The notes beneath the pieces are model-generated. The model saw only the letters and a program-made list of their open reading frames with translations. It made no database searches and had not been told where the DNA came from. 64,000 nucleotides of DNA, taken from Profundicola chukchiensis. GTDB taxonomy: Bacteria > Bacteroidota > Bacteroidia > Flavobacteriales > Weeksellaceae. How positions within the stretch are numbered: position 1 is the first letter of the stretch; the number at the start of each line of letters is the position of its first letter. The stretch lies in NCBI RefSeq assembly GCF_029664245.1, contig NZ_JANAIE010000001.1, positions 1-64,000 on the forward strand, written 5' to 3'. Positions 53,779 through 63,610 of the stretch are shown in pieces. The translations under genes were made by a program, and so were the position numbers.

Positions 53779-55191
53779 ATGAAATTAAAATACCGCGACT
53801 TAATAGATCAGACCTATTATTTTCCACAAGATGAATTCGATACCAAGGGAAGTAACCTAACTTTTCATGGTATAGAAGTAATGGATTTGGTAAATAAATA
53901 TGGTGCACCTTTGAAATTCACCTATCTACCCAAGATTTCGGAGAATATTCAGAAGGCCAAAAATTGGTTCAGAGAAGCCATGGAAAAACATGATTATGAG
54001 GCTACTTATAATTATTGCTATTGCACCAAGAGTTCGCATTTTTCATTTGTATTAGATGAAGCGCTTAAGAATAAAATCCATATTGAAACTAGCTCTGCCT
54101 ACGACATCAATATTGTTGAGATTCTTAAAAAAGAAGGAAAACTAAGCAACAAAAGCTGGATTCTTTGTAATGGTTTTAAACGCGATCAATACATAGACAA
54201 CATAGCTAGATTAGTAAACGGTGGTCACAAAAAGTGTATCCCAATTTTAGATAATGCAGAAGAATTAGATCTTTTATCAGAAAATATCAACGGTAAATTC
54301 GATATTGGAATCCGTATTGCCTCTGAAGAGGAACCAAAATTTGAGTTCTATACTTCTCGTTTGGGAATAGGGTATCGAGACATTGTGCCTTTCTATAAAA
54401 GCAAGGTGAAAGAAGATCCAAAAGCAAGCTTAAAAATGCTTCACTTCTTTATTAATACAGGAATTAGAGACACTGCTTATTATTGGAACGAGCTACATAA
54501 ATGTTTAAAGGTTTATGTTAATCTTAAAAAGATTTGCCCAACATTAGATTCATTAAATATTGGTGGAGGATTCCCGATCAAGAATTCATTGGCTTTTGAG
54601 TATGATTATGCTTATATCATCGACGAGATCATCAACCAAATCAAAGTAGTTTGTCAAGATGCCGGAGTAGAAGTTCCTAATATTTTCACAGAATTCGGTT
54701 CATTTACGGTTGGAGAAAGCGGTGGTGCGGTATATGAAGTTTTACACCAAAAACAACAAAACGACCGTGAAAAATGGAACATGATTAACTCATCTTTCAT
54801 TACTACCCTGCCAGACTCTTGGGCGATTAACAAACGATTTGTTTTATTATCTGTTAACCGTTGGGACGACGAATACGAAAGAGTTTTATTAGGTGGTTTA
54901 ACTTGCGATAGTGATGATTACTATAACAGTGAGCAAAACTTAAACGCTATTTATCTTCCTAAGTTCAAAAAAGACAAACCATTATATATAGGTTTCTTCA
55001 ACACAGGAGCATATCAAGAGAGCATTGGAGGTTTTGGTGGAATTCAGCATTGTTTGATTCCTACGCCAAAACATATCCTGATCAACAGAGACGAGAATGG
55101 AATTATTTTCACCAAAGTTTTTGCTGAGCAACAATCACACGATAATATGTTGCGCACCTTAGGATACAATGTAGACGAAGAGAATAAATAA
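53779..55191 (+). CDS. speA: Arginine decarboxylase (fold III PLP enzyme)
   Basis: This 470-aa alanine-racemase-fold decarboxylase converts arginine to agmatine. It is the short Bacteroidota form, without the long inserts of E. coli SpeA (~660 aa). The PLP Lys is K84 in YCTKSSHFSFV. ETSSAYDINIVEIL, NIGGGFPIKNS and the C-terminal FFNTGAYQESIGGFGG-type region are conserved. Diaminopimelate or another diamino-acid decarboxylase of the fold is the alternative. The gene for the DHS-like protein follows 125 bp on the same strand. Confidence 0.85.
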   Translation: MKLKYRDLIDQTYYFPQDEFDTKGSNLTFHGIEVMDLVNKYGAPLKFTYLPKISENIQKAKNWFREAMEKHDYEATYNYCYCTKSSHFSFVLDEALKNKIHIETSSAYDINIVEILKKEGKLSNKSWILCNGFKRDQYIDNIARLVNGGHKKCIPILDNAEELDLLSENINGKFDIGIRIASEEEPKFEFYTSRLGIGYRDIVPFYKSKVKEDPKASLKMLHFFINTGIRDTAYYWNELHKCLKVYVNLKKICPTLDSLNIGGGFPIKNSLAFEYDYAYIIDEIINQIKVVCQDAGVEVPNIFTEFGSFTVGESGGAVYEVLHQKQQNDREKWNMINSSFITTLPDSWAINKRFVLLSVNRWDDEYERVLLGGLTCDSDDYYNSEQNLNAIYLPKFKKDKPLYIGFFNTGAYQESIGGFGGIQHCLIPTPKHILINRDENGIIFTKVFAEQQSHDNMLRTLGYNVDEENK

Positions 55192-56659: not shown

Positions 56660-56751
56660 TTTTAAGAATAGTAGTCCTTAGTAGTTAGTAATTGGTTTAG
56701 GGTGTAGAGTGTAGGGTTTAGAGTTTTCATTTAACGAAATAAAAAGGCTCA

Positions 56752-56831
56752 TGTCATGCTGAACTTGATTCAGCATCTAGCGCAATAATCGGTTATAGCT
56801 TAAAAGATTCCGCATCGAGTGCGGAATGACG
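56752..56831 (+). repeat. Element A (~80 bp, terminal inverted repeats), first of eight copies
   Basis: The left end TGTCATGCTGAACTTG and the right end CAAGTGCGGAATGACG are imperfect inverted repeats, each itself containing a short palindrome. Similar full copies start at about 57183, 57481, 57596, 58678, 62003, 62118 and 62836. Right-end-only copies lie near 57421, 58991, 59172, 59252, 63354 and 63547. A variant palindrome with CCGGGCTTGACCCGG is at 56865-56894. Confidence 0.85.
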
Positions 56832-57182
56832 CTCTGGGTTTAATTTAACGAAAAGCCAAAACGCTTGTCATTCCGGGCTTGACCCGGAATCTAGTTTTAG
56901 CTATTCGAAGAAAACTTTTACATCTTATCTCGAAAGTTAGGAGCGAAGAAACTGCTCCTCTTTTAAGGGGAGCTGTCCGCAGGACTGAGGGGTTCTACAT
57001 TAGTATATAGTAATGAATAGTTAGTACCTAGTAGTCAGTAATTAGTTTTGGATGTAGAGTGTAAGGTGTAGAGTTTTCTGTCTCATGGAGGAGGATTTTT
57101 CCTTAGAAAAATTTGTATCGAAATGTCGACAGAAAAGAGGCTTAACCTACTTCGCTTTTCATTTAACGAAATAACAAGGCGC

Positions 57183-57417
57183 ATGTCATGCTAAACTTGA
57201 TTCTGCATCTAGCACAATGATCGGTTAAAGCTTAAAAGATTCCGCATCGAGTGCGGAATGTCGCTTCGGGGTTGTTTAGTTTTGAGTGTAGGGTTTAGAG
57301 AATTACTGCTATACAGCATGCAGAATAATTCAAAATTTATAATTTAAAATTCATCATTTCCTTCGTGTCTTAGGCTTCGATACAATTTTGTTTCACAAAA
57401 TCACTCAGCCTGACAAG
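57183..57417 (+). repeat. Composite A-D-E-B repeat, first of six
   Basis: The order A, D (GT-rich TTTAGGGTGTAG tract), E and B recurs at 57183-57417, 58678-58920, 58991-59169 (right half of A only), 62118-62367, 62836-63078 and 63354-63543 (right half of A only). The fixed order shows that these modules spread as a unit of about 180-250 bp. Confidence 0.8.
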
Positions 57418-57823
57418 AAAGACTCTGAATCGAGTTCAGAGTGACGCTTCGGGTTTTCATTTAACGAAAAGCCAAGCCGCATGTCATGCTGAACTTGATT
57501 CAGCATCTAACATAATGATCGGCTAAAGCTTAAAAGATTCCGCATCAAGTGCGGAATGACGCTTCGGGATTTCATTTATCGAAAAGTCAAAGCGTATGTC
57601 ATGCTGAACTTGATTCAGCATCTAGCGCAATGATCGGCTAAAGCTTAAAAGATTCCGCATCAAGAACGGAATGACACGCTAGATTAAATCACCTTTAAAC
57701 ACTAATAGCGTCCGCAAGCCCCTGAAATACAACAACTAGGAAAAACCGCGAGTAAACTCTTCATTTTCTCCTGGGATGCTTATCTTAAACTTCTTAATTT
57801 AGCTATGATTCAAATGATCACAC

Positions 57824-58111
57824 ATGAAAAGCCTAAGCAACATCCTATATCCGAACTTCTTAACAAATAAATTTATTAGTTTCATTTCATCTATTCTCAT
57901 ATATTTCAAATTAACTGAACTGATATCAGAATTTCTTCTGGCGAATAATCAACTTGAAATCTCTAAACATATTAAGGTTCAGCAAACACTGAACTTCTCA
58001 CTAACTCAAATTCAAAAAGAAAAGAATTACACGCAATCATATTTTAGTATTTCTTCTAAATTCTCTTATGCTCACTCCCCCTTAGGCTTAAGATTTTATA
58101 ATCTCATTTAG
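57824..58111 (+). CDS. Doubtful 95-aa open frame inside the repeat field
   Basis: This is the only frame of note in the non-repeated island 57680-58440. It has a hydrophobic N-terminal third (FLTNKFISFISSILIYFKLTELISEFLL), then a polar Gln/Ser/Tyr-rich part ending HSPLGLRFYNLI. A plus-strand terminator hairpin follows 33 bp after the stop, which is the best argument that something is transcribed. No -7 box is evident, no family is recognised and the composition is ordinary for AT-rich non-coding DNA. It may be spurious. Confidence 0.25.
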   Translation: MKSLSNILYPNFLTNKFISFISSILIYFKLTELISEFLLANNQLEISKHIKVQQTLNFSLTQIQKEKNYTQSYFSISSKFSYAHSPLGLRFYNLI

Positions 58112-58143
58112 CTTACTTATAGAGGTAAATCATAATATTCAAA

Positions 58144-58176
58144 CAGCCTGAAATTTCATTTCAGGCTGGTTTTTTG
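58144..58176 (+). terminator. Terminator hairpin before the 22-bp array
   Basis: CAGCCTGAAAT (58144-58154) / ATTTCAGGCTG (58158-58168) perfect stem followed by GTTTTTTGG. Confidence 0.75.
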
Positions 58177-58185
58177 GTTAAAATC

Positions 58186-58302
58186 ATGCGTATCTTTTAC
58201 TAAAAAGATGCGCATCTTCTACAAATTTCATCCGCATAAAGTTGTTTCATCATGCGCATAAAGTGTTTTGATCATGCGGATGAAATAAATTTTCATGCGG
58301 AT
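58186..58302 (+). repeat. Iteron-like array: six octamers with 22-bp period
   Basis: Octamers ATGCGTAT (58186), ATGCGCAT (58208), ATCCGCAT (58230, the reverse complement of ATGCGGAT), ATGCGCAT (58252), ATGCGGAT (58274) and ATGCGGAT (58295) are spaced 22, 22, 22, 22 and 21 bp. The spacers are AT-rich with A or T tracts. The period is not a multiple of three, so this is not a coding repeat. Spacing of about two helical turns puts all cores on one DNA face. Confidence 0.85.
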
Positions 58303-58478
58303 GAAGTTATTTTTACTCAAAATCATAGATTTTAAGGCTCTTTATCGGGTGAAATGGTTGTATATATCTAGCATTTTCACGCTGTTTTAATGCCCATTTT
58401 GTGGCTTTTAACTGGTGTTTTTTGAGGATTTTAAGGGGAATTCAGTTTAGGGTGTAGGGTTTAGAGTGTAGAGCTTTC

Positions 58479-58612
58479 TGTCACATTGAGTGTTTTTCTC
58501 CTTAGAGAAAAATGTATCGAAATGTCGACAGAAAAGAGGCTTGACGTACTTCGTTCTTCTCTTGTCTTAGGCTTCGATACAATTTTGTTTCACAAAATCA
58601 CTCAGCCTGACA
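58479..58612 (+). repeat. Element C-B (134 bp, terminal inverted repeats), first of four full copies
   Basis: The left end TGTCACATTGAGTG and the right end CACTCAGCCTGACA are inverted repeats. The interior has a hairpin around CTCCTTAGAGAAA and a GTCGAC site. Full copies are at 58479-58612, 62430-62563, 62636-62770 and 63147-63280, all 134-135 bp. B halves alone occur at about 57367, 58869, 59119, 62316, 63026 and 63491, and a C half at about 57079. Confidence 0.85.
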
Positions 58613-59335
58613 AGAAAGACTCTGAATCGAGTTCAGAGTGTCACTTCGGGGTTTCATTTAACGGAAAGCCAAGGCGCATGTCATGCTGAACTTGATTCAG
58701 CATCTAGCGCAATGATCGGTTATAGCTTAAAAGATTCCGCATCAAGTGCGGAATGACGCTCCGGGTTATATTAGTGTAGGGTATAGAGCGTAGTGTTTAG
58801 AGAATTACTGCTATACGGCATGCAGAATAATTCAAAATTTATAATTTAAAATTCATCATTTCATCCCTGTCTTAGGCTTCGATACAATTTTGCTGCGCAA
58901 AATCACTCAGCCTGACAAGAGATGCTCTGCATTAAACAACCTTTAAACAATTTAAACTACTTTTAAACCACCTTTAACCCACTTGAGCATGAGATTCCGC
59001 ATCAAGTGCGGAATGACGCCCCGGGTTTCTTTAGTTTAGGGTGTAGGGTTTAGAGAGTTGCTACTCTGCTGCAAGAATAATTCAACATTTATAACTTAAA
59101 ATTCATCATTTCATCCCTGTCTTAGGCTTCGATACAATTTTGCTGCGCAAAATCACTCAGCCTGACAAGAAAGACTCTGAATCAAGTTCAGAGTGACGTT
59201 TCGGGTTAAACTATTTAAACTACTTTTAAACCACCTTTAATCCACTTGAGCATGAGATTCCGCATCAAGTGCGGAATGACGCTTCGGGTTAAACCACCTT
59301 TAATCCACCTTAACCCTACCTTATCATCAAAAGAA

Positions 59336-61984: not shown

Positions 61985-63610
61985 TTATTAATAACAAAGC
62001 GCATGTCATGCTGAACTTGATTCAGCATCTAGCGCAATGCTCGTTTAAAGCTTAAAAGATTCCGCATCAAGTTCGGAGTAAAACTTCGGGTTTTCATTTA
62101 ACGAAATAGCTAGGCGCATGTCATGCTGAACTTGATTCAGCATCTAGCACAATGCTCGGTTATAGCTTAAAAGATTCCGCATCAAGTGCGGAATGACGCT
62201 TCGGGTTATATTAGTTTAGGGTGTAGGGTTTAGAGTGTAGTGTTTAGAGAATTACTGCTTTACGGGATGCAAAATAATTCAAAATTTATAATTTAAAATT
62301 CATCATTTCATCCTTGTCTTAGGCTTCGATACAATTTTGCTGCACAAAATCACTCAGCCTGACAAGAGGATGCTCTAGTCGAAAGTAGAAGGTAGAAAGG
62401 AGAAAATAGTGAAGAGTGTAACGTTTTTCTGTCACATTGAGTGAATTTTTCCTTAGAAAAATTTGTATCGAAATGTCGACAGAAAAACAGCTTGACGTAC
62501 TTCGTTCTTCTCTTGCCCTAGGCTTCGATACAATTTTGCTATGCAAAATCACTCAGCCTGACAAGAGTATGTTCTAGTCGAAAGCATAAAGTAGAAGGTA
62601 GAAAGGAGAAAATAGTGAAGAGTGTAACGTTTTTCTGTCACATGGAGGAGGATTTTTCCTTAGAAAAATTTGTATCGAAATGTCGACAGAAAAACAGCTT
62701 GACGTACTTCGTTCTTCTCTTGCCCTAGGCTTCGATACAATTTTACTCCACAAAATCACTCAGCCTGACAAGAGAGGTTCCGCATCAAGCTCAGAGTAAC
62801 GTTTCGGGTTTTCATTTAACGAAATAACAAGCCGTGTGTCATGCTGAACTTGATTCAGCATCTAGCACAATGTTCGGTTAAAACTTAAAAGATTCCGCAT
62901 CAAGTGCGGAATGACGCTTCGGAATATATTAGTTTAGGGTGTAGAGTGTAGTGTTTAAAGAATTACTGCTATACGGCATGCAGAATAATTCAAAATTTAT
63001 TATTTAAAATTCAACATTTAACTCTTGTCTTAGGCTTCGATACAATTTTGTTTCACAAAATCACTCAGCCTGACAAGAGGATGCTCTAGTCGAAAGCATA
63101 AAGTAGAAGGTAGAAGGAAGGAAATAGTGTAGAGTTTAGAGCTTTCTGTCACATTGAGTGTTTTTCTCCTTAGAGAAAAATGTATCGAAATGTCGACAGA
63201 AAAACAGCTTGACGTACTTCGTTCTTCTCTTGCCCTAGGCTTCGATACAATTTTGCAGCGCAAAATCACTCAGCCTGACAAGAGAGACTTTAGGTTAAAC
63301 AACCTTTAAACTATTTAAACTACCTTTAAACCACCTTTAACCCACTTGAGCATGAGATTCCGCATCAAGTGCGGAATGACGCTTCGGATTTGATTAGTTT
63401 AGGGTGTAGGGTGTAAGGTTTAAGGATTCCTAGTGTTGCAATATGAAGAGTAATTCAAAGTTTAGAATTTAATATTCATCATTTCATCCTTGCCTTAGGC
63501 TTCGATACAATTTTGCTACGCAAAATCACTCAGCCTGACAAGAGGAACTCTGAATCAAGTGCGGAATGACGCTTCGCGTTAAACAGCCTTTAATCAGTCT
63601 TCGTCACAAC
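61985..63610 (+). repeat. Second field of interspersed palindromic repeats
   Basis: This region is built from the same modules as 56690-59330 and in the same orientation: A at 62003, 62118 and 62836; C-B at 62430, 62636 and 63147; and A-D-E-B composites at 62118, 62836 and 63354. It has no gene. The short minus-strand frames inside it are repeat artefacts. Positions 61741-61984 between the lectin gene and this field are AT-rich, with no other feature seen. Confidence 0.9.

Follow-up and report, generated by a model that had tools for sequence, protein, structure and literature searches.

22-bp-phased repeat arrays linked to HU-HIG genes in Bacteroidota and an orphan array in Profundicola chukchiensis

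Related repeat systems

HU is the textbook non-specific nucleoid protein and IHF is sequence-specific; both are dimers that bend DNA. The HU-HIG clade, which shares the fold of IHF and canonical HU, is reportedly the subject of a comparative paper by Burroughs et al. from 2017. The iterons of the plasmids R6K and RK2 are units of about 22 bp adjoining the gene of their binding protein, and ParR/parC and other centromere arrays are likewise phased and adjoin a binding protein. In REP elements, the RAYT transposase gene is flanked by its own repeat, and orphan copies of the repeat are dispersed. The REP325 repeat and the HU gene of E. coli are not known to be a linked pair, and the HU involved there is the general one. 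The available part of the report on REP325 and naRNA4 gives HU and this extragenic palindromic repeat a role in the E. coli nucleoid, with the repeat-encoded RNA as the agent (PMC6907758). BrickBuilt, a minisatellite MITE of Porphyromonas gingivalis, consists of 23-nt bricks with a leader, a tail and IS5-like ends, according to the available part of its description (PMC4596501).

The DNA analysed here, called the window, comprises bases 1-64000 of contig C21 in the 2.62-Mb draft genome of Profundicola chukchiensis (G000). It holds a 22-bp-phased array homologous to one that is linked to an HU-HIG gene elsewhere in the genome. Like the iterons of R6K and RK2, the HU-HIG arrays consist of units of about 22 bp beside the gene of a probable binding protein; they differ from iterons in that no Rep was found, in lying mostly downstream of the gene, in their dispersed chromosomal orphans and in their hypervariable core. 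They resemble ParR/parC in being phased beside a putative binder, but no motor gene was found among the scanned neighbours. With REP/RAYT they share the gene-flanking repeat and the orphans, whereas the HU-HIG protein matched only HU/IHF-type domains and the step is fixed at 22 bp. BrickBuilt and the HU-HIG arrays are both intergenic tandem repeats of Bacteroidota, some of them near terminators, but the available part of the BrickBuilt description contains no HU partner (PMC4596501), and on this description BrickBuilt was rejected as a match for the window array. REP325/naRNA4 with HU is, as far as the available part of its report goes, the nearest functional precedent.

The HU-HIG family is known, and the array shows no tested defining feature of iterons, partition sites or REP/RAYT. 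The pairing of HU-HIG with gene-specific phased arrays appears to be new. This assessment rests on the failed membership tests and on the open-access literature searched, which held no account of HU-HIG-linked 22-bp arrays; a description elsewhere is possible.

The window array and its copies in the genome

The array had been described in an earlier note as six cores at an exact 22-bp period (Table 1). All six core coordinates were borne out, as were the two palindromes, the single core in minus orientation and the terminator hairpin to the left. The period is exact for the first four steps but not for the last one. The same note suggested that a protein could bind all cores on one face of the helix. 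Because a 22-bp step at 10.5 bp per turn rotates by about 34 degrees per unit, the six sites are not strictly aligned on relaxed DNA. The spacers, which were said not to be conserved, do differ between units within one array, but they are about 70% identical by position among five homologous arrays.

Core matches in the 64-kb window number 14 against 6.3 expected, each palindrome being counted once per strand. Cores spaced by 21-23 bp form a run of up to six; among 300 simulated windows (first-order Markov model) the longest such run was a single core. Genome-wide, a three-core pattern gave five matches per strand and a backwards control pattern none. These checks reject chance. A CRISPR was rejected on inspection, as the cores span 8 bp and long identical repeats are absent.

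Table 1. Features of the window array, its surroundings and the arrays of the same genome
Feature	Position	Strand	Description
Six-unit array	58186..58302	.	ATGCGNAT cores; steps 22, 22, 22, 22, 21
Core 1	58186		ATGCGTAT
Core 2	58208		ATGCGCAT, palindrome
Core 3	58230	minus	ATGCGGAT
Core 4	58252		ATGCGCAT, palindrome
Cores 5 and 6	58274 and 58295		ATGCGGAT each
Terminator-like hairpin	58145..58175	+	AGCCTGAAA..TTTCAGGCT; hairpin 58145-58167, T run 58170-58175; accompanies the array in all five homologous copies
Leader motif	57734..57759	+	AACTAGGAAAAACnnnGAGTAAA; recurs at other array loci, with one copy upstream of the C54 HU-HIG gene
Orphan element, probable extent	57734..58310	+	Leader, region without HU-HIG, hairpin, array; ends drawn where homology of the copies stops; search for an empty site negative
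Doubtful gene, 95-aa open frame	57824..58111	+	Position matches HU-HIG in the intact C54 copy
Arrays with this core in the genome	C21:58k (window), C54:217k, C65:117k, C76:144k, C87:5k, C87:156k, C21:420k, C32:150k
Other core words in the genome			ACTCAC..GTGAGT; AGTCCGTGAA..TTCACGGACT (by eye)

The same core was found again in the own genome, and the 22-bp period in other genomes. The three-core pattern gave six clusters in the own genome and a two-core pattern two more places, which makes eight arrays with this core. The window query gave no array in the two same-genus genomes among the 40 of 90-99 candidates scored. Five arrays (C21:58k, C54, C65, C76 and C87:5k) align over the hairpin and over 117 bp of array without an indel, with mean pairwise identities of 0.83 in the cores, 0.70 in the spacers and 0.87 in the hairpin. 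The variation in their four left-hand cores is mostly a C/G switch at the third base. The exact hairpin pattern occurs at five genome sites, four of them at arrays, and a variant of the hairpin precedes the C87:5k array. The leader AACTAGGAAAAA was found at window position 57734 and at L030 4584, L031 4524 and L029 3928; C87:5k has a variant, and the exact form is absent from the remaining own-genome loci searched. At C87:156k, C21:420k and C32:150k (L033, L014 and L015), AAGCTCTTGnnnTTTT units, also in 22-bp steps by eye, directly precede the ATGCGCAT units, so that one array holds two kinds of core.

Six of the eight arrays are orphans. The other two, C54:217k and C21:420k, lie directly downstream of HU-HIG genes (PF18291/HU_rel) with no gene in between. 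The products of these genes score 96.9 bits (C54) and 92.7 bits (C21:420k) against PF18291, with a cut-off of 26.2, and 68.9 and 78.6 against TIGR01201, with a cut-off of 68.6. The model of the linked HU-HIG protein has a mean pLDDT of 92.7, and its best Foldseek match is 4fmr, followed by HU and IHF chains. By profile scores, model and Foldseek, the linked protein is an HU-HIG member with the HU/IHF fold, and only HU/IHF-type domains were matched in it. The genome has five HU-HIG matches, one of which is cut by a contig end. The other three genes are followed, by eye, by a hairpin and then by periodic units with other core words; at the two intact ones lag 22 or 43-44 leads. Two of the other array types of the own genome were used as queries and no orphan arrays of them were found there.

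The window array is an orphan, although it has the 22-bp step and is homologous to the array linked to the HU-HIG gene at C54. Upstream, the window and C54 copies have the leader motif in common, and downstream the hairpin and array. No HU-HIG match at E<=0.01 was obtained anywhere in the window. The 95-aa frame in the place of the gene has no Pfam match and, by eye, is not clearly homologous to the open frames that occupy this place in C65 and C76. Because leader, hairpin and array are common to both copies but the gene is absent, the window copy looks like an element that lost its HU-HIG gene or was copied without it. The C65 and C76 orphans are identical at 146 of 168 positions of hairpin and array, at 300 of 400 upstream and at 202 of 448 columns downstream, and the flanks are likewise free of indels for some 600 bp. 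The comparison suggests selection on an orphan array, one pair being thin evidence.

The seven longer genes near the window array are ordinary. They encode a TonB receptor, PurK, an arginine-decarboxylase-type enzyme, a deoxyhypusine-synthase family protein and others without a firm match. The stretches 56690-58800 and 61995-63600 of the window are dense in dispersed intergenic repeats, some with units about 115 or 207 bp long, others 14-mers resembling TAGGGTGTAGAGTG. A 6.25-kb window query had 121 matches in the own genome, a number that counts the query and the arrays; in the two same-genus genomes it gave only short repeat matches among the 40 of 90-99 candidates scored. A PF02784 decarboxylase lies near the window array (53779-55191) and another directly behind a Riemerella HU-HIG array (L089 5516-6979), which may be a coincidence.

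HU-HIG genes and 22-bp arrays in other genomes

HU-HIG matches at E<=1e-8 were found in 20 of 60 genomes of the same family, the own included; one genome has 19 matches, and both same-genus genomes have none. Over the phylum, 17 of 247 genomes have an HU-HIG Pfam match at E<=1e-15. Of the 58 flanks of the first 29 placed loci (four of these from the own genome), 19 had lag 22 as the strongest lag between 10 and 60; the runner-up lag led in six. A scan of GTDB genomes gave 124 relatives, of which 80 loci were kept; by title, two lie in Lactococcus reticulitermitis and all others in Bacteroidota. The loci gave 150 near flanks, and in 52 of them lag 22 ranked first. A strong array signal, defined as lag-22 z>3, was present in 50 of the 150 near flanks against 1 of 367 distal windows 1.5-4.5 kb away. 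Since coding sequence could suppress the signal in the distal windows, the test was repeated on non-coding gaps only. The signal was then found in 32 of 76 gaps adjoining HU-HIG and in 3 of 99 elsewhere, and two of these three are Lactococcus HU-HIG arrays misassigned by the 60-bp distance rule. A further non-coding gap with lag 22, in Riemerella (L096 7764-8396), lies more than 2 kb from the HU-HIG gene and is a possible orphan array.

Counted by locus, the strong signal is present at 49 of the 80 HU-HIG loci (z rounded), at 12 of 24 in a separate phylum-wide draw by Pfam profile and at 7 of 15 placed loci (of 19) in the genome G050. Canonical HU genes, which are without the N-terminal extension and the gene-specific linked core of HU-HIG, showed it at 0 of 24 loci. 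The loci without strong signal (31 of 80, 12 of 24 and 8 of 15) include some where the contig is cut just behind the gene or the steps are mixed 21/22; others look like plain misses. These counts support a genetic link of the HU-HIG family to such arrays in Bacteroidota.

Of the 49 strong arrays in the 80-locus set, 46 are downstream of the HU-HIG gene and three upstream; several upstream arrays occur in the other sets. The best 88-bp window begins a median of 19 bp behind the stop codon, and at 15 of the 46 downstream arrays the next open frame is convergent. Most units are palindromes bordered by A/T tracts, for example AAACATGCGCATGTTT, AAACCTGCGCAGGTTT, AAAGGTGCGCACCTTT and AAAACGTACGTACGTTTT.

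The core differs from gene to gene and tracks the protein only over short distances. Among 76 loci compared at a unit similarity threshold of at least 0.77, similar units were found in 7 of 8 pairs with at least 90% protein identity, 6 of 11 at 85-90%, 7 of 44 at 80-85%, 9 of 101 at 75-80% and 3 of 1891 below 60%. The Mantel correlation of core and protein is 0.15, with 4 of 999 permutations as high (79 loci, three duplicates included). One genome has paralogues of about 80% identity whose arrays have three cores unrelated to one another. As proteins this similar can have unrelated arrays, either a change of few residues must suffice to alter specificity or the link is a loose one. A residue-level scan brought 1 of 83 alignment columns past the multiple-testing line (95%), which we do not treat as shown. 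The protein regions were also compared in pairs of 75-93% identity, 103 with different and 24 with the same core. Relative to the protein mean, differences in the N-terminal arm (residues 8-22) amount to 1.53 in different-core and 0.97 in same-core pairs, and those in the beta-arm to 1.82 and 1.81, with no excess in different-core pairs. The N-arm excess was matched by 4 of 138 usable permutations, and the two groups of pairs differ in mean identity (0.784 against 0.825). The N-terminal arm as the seat of specificity may be taken as a lead only.

In L. reticulitermitis (G060; termite-gut), two HU-HIG genes are intact and a third copy is frameshifted; there is also one weak match besides. By eye, the three copies show a common promoter-like stretch, then three different arrays, then the gene. 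The array can thus also sit where regulation of its own gene would be possible. Orphan copies of the array of one of these genes were found at eight further places, with 2 to 8 recognised units at 22-bp steps; five of them are flanked by convergent genes and none by divergent ones, open frames shorter than 80 aa being ignored. Here as in the window's genome, the distance from an orphan to the nearest HU-HIG gene is kilobases or more. Two orphan arrays (L260 and L263) have, by eye, a common flank of about 90 bp including a hairpin, an arrangement that resembles the hairpin-plus-array cassette of the window genome. The left flank of the HU-HIG locus with the recurring array matches in all of 11 other Lactococcus genomes and the right flank in 10, while array and HU-HIG gene of that locus have no match there. 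Three intervals examined in other Lactococcus genomes hold other sequence, and a clean empty site was not found. Eight other arrays queried over three genomes gave three orphan-like matches, only in Lactococcus, one of which overlaps an array of another type. Four G050 array types queried in G050 gave no orphan arrays.

HU-HIG relatives are present on 17 plasmid and 6 phage records, and four of these 23 were examined for arrays. By eye, an array lies upstream of the HU-HIG gene on a Treponema plasmid, with mixed 21/22 steps and a lag-22 z of 2.7, below the z>3 line. No array was found at two Bacteroides/Parabacteroides plasmid genes or on one phage contig. On these Parabacteroides and Bacteroides plasmids (L293 and L294), the HU-family gene is followed by a small protein and then by a carboxypeptidase-family or amidase gene, a different setting for HU-HIG.

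Clustering of the 272 neighbour proteins from the 80 loci gave only small groups, of nine members at most. Of the 75 immediate neighbours (at least 100 aa) at 49 array loci, 30 were scanned with profiles and the remaining 45 were clustered only. The scanned proteins include malic enzyme, PriA, ABC transporters, peptidases, aldehyde dehydrogenase and a DarT-like protein; nine have no match. Mostly they are metabolic, secreted or of unknown kind, with no dominant family. Since no neighbour family recurs at most array loci, gene and array together seem to be a stand-alone unit. No Rep, ParA/ParM or transposase family was found among the 30 of 75 scanned neighbours or the seven window neighbours.

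Proposed role and alternative explanations

It is quite likely that the array is specifically bound by an HU-HIG protein. We propose that the window array is an orphan copy of a phased binding-site array cognate to HU-HIG, a reading we hold probable up to and including cooperative binding. An HU-HIG dimer would read each palindrome, perhaps via its N-terminal arm, and dimers on successive 22-bp units would cooperate, bending or wrapping the DNA into a compact nucleoprotein complex. One dimer per palindrome and cooperation over 22 bp are suggested by the anatomy of the array and by the bending of DNA by HU and IHF dimers. Less certainly, the dispersed arrays would be structural sites filled in trans by the protein of the gene at C54:217188 or C21:420257, and such a protein may bring them together as a private nucleoid-organising system. 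Among the three options offered in the earlier note, a nucleoid or chromosome-domain site fits best, with binding and function predicted from the DNA. A chromosome-organising role can be put forward only tentatively. The same caution applies to the broader conjecture of a horizontally mobile class of sequence-specific chromosome architects, in which each gene would have a private 22-bp-phased address array, diversified against cross-talk, with copies spread for bridging or marking. With such address diversity, many paralogues, as in the genome with 19 HU-HIG matches, could coexist without cross-talk. If true, a widespread HU branch tied to gene-specific phased arrays would be a natural source of orthogonal DNA-architecture parts, and it would become testable how specificity evolves in the HU family and what many HU paralogues per genome do.

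We regard it as rather unlikely that the array is a selfish or hitch-hiking repeat of the MITE or REP kind, for which HU-HIG would serve the spread or simply be carried, with no cellular role. The hairpin-plus-array cassette at five places agrees with this explanation, as do the common hairpin-bearing flank of the two Lactococcus orphans, the preference of the orphans there for convergent gene ends, the lack of HU-HIG in both same-genus genomes and its occurrence in Lactococcus and on a Treponema plasmid. However, the 30 scanned neighbours include neither a transposase nor a dominant family, the cores are better conserved than the spacers, and neither a target-site duplication nor a clean empty site was shown. 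REP/RAYT itself was rejected, as no TnpA-REP transposase was found beside the repeat among the same neighbours and HU-HIG has HU-type domains only.

Transcription operators, through which the array would regulate the HU-HIG gene or the next gene and orphans their neighbours, are an unlikely explanation. It would suit the three Lactococcus arrays just upstream of the HU-HIG start, the three upstream arrays among the 49 strong ones, several in the other sets and the C54 array between HU-HIG and a BREX operon. It is at odds with the downstream position of 46 of those 49 arrays, 15 of which precede a convergent frame, and with the convergent setting of the Lactococcus orphans; the window array, too, follows a hairpin, and the gene after it is convergent. 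A structural role is preferred over a promoter role because arrays sit behind hairpins and between convergent genes. Under the proposed binding by HU-HIG, any autoregulation by an array in a promoter region would be incidental.

Very unlikely is an RNA element, in which the palindromes would act as RNA hairpins, either as tandem terminators or as HU-chaperoned nucleoid-associated RNA like naRNA4 from REP325. Many downstream arrays begin near the stop codon and may be transcribed, a T run ends some last units, and several arrays consist of alternating inverted units able to pair. Yet the five homologous arrays sit behind a terminator-like hairpin, although transcription from the other side is possible; a fixed 22-bp step is expected of DNA and not of RNA hairpins, and some arrays look like direct repeats (L058, by eye).

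It is most improbable that the array serves an integrated plasmid as replication iterons or as a partition (centromere) site, two of the functions suggested in the earlier note. The iteron-like step and the relatives on 17 plasmid records, one with an array by eye, would agree with it, but neither a Rep family nor an adjacent motor of the ParA, ParM or TubZ type was found among the seven window and 30 of 75 array-locus neighbours, copies are dispersed on the chromosome, both same-genus genomes have homologues of the left-hand genes of the window, and two Bacteroides/Parabacteroides plasmid loci are without array.

The BREX operon beside the C54 array encodes BrxA, BrxB, BrxC, PglX, a HEC-06/Orf5-like protein, PglZ and BrxL. 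It lies at C54:217000-235000 (L327) between two HU-HIG-plus-array units, both of which point inwards.
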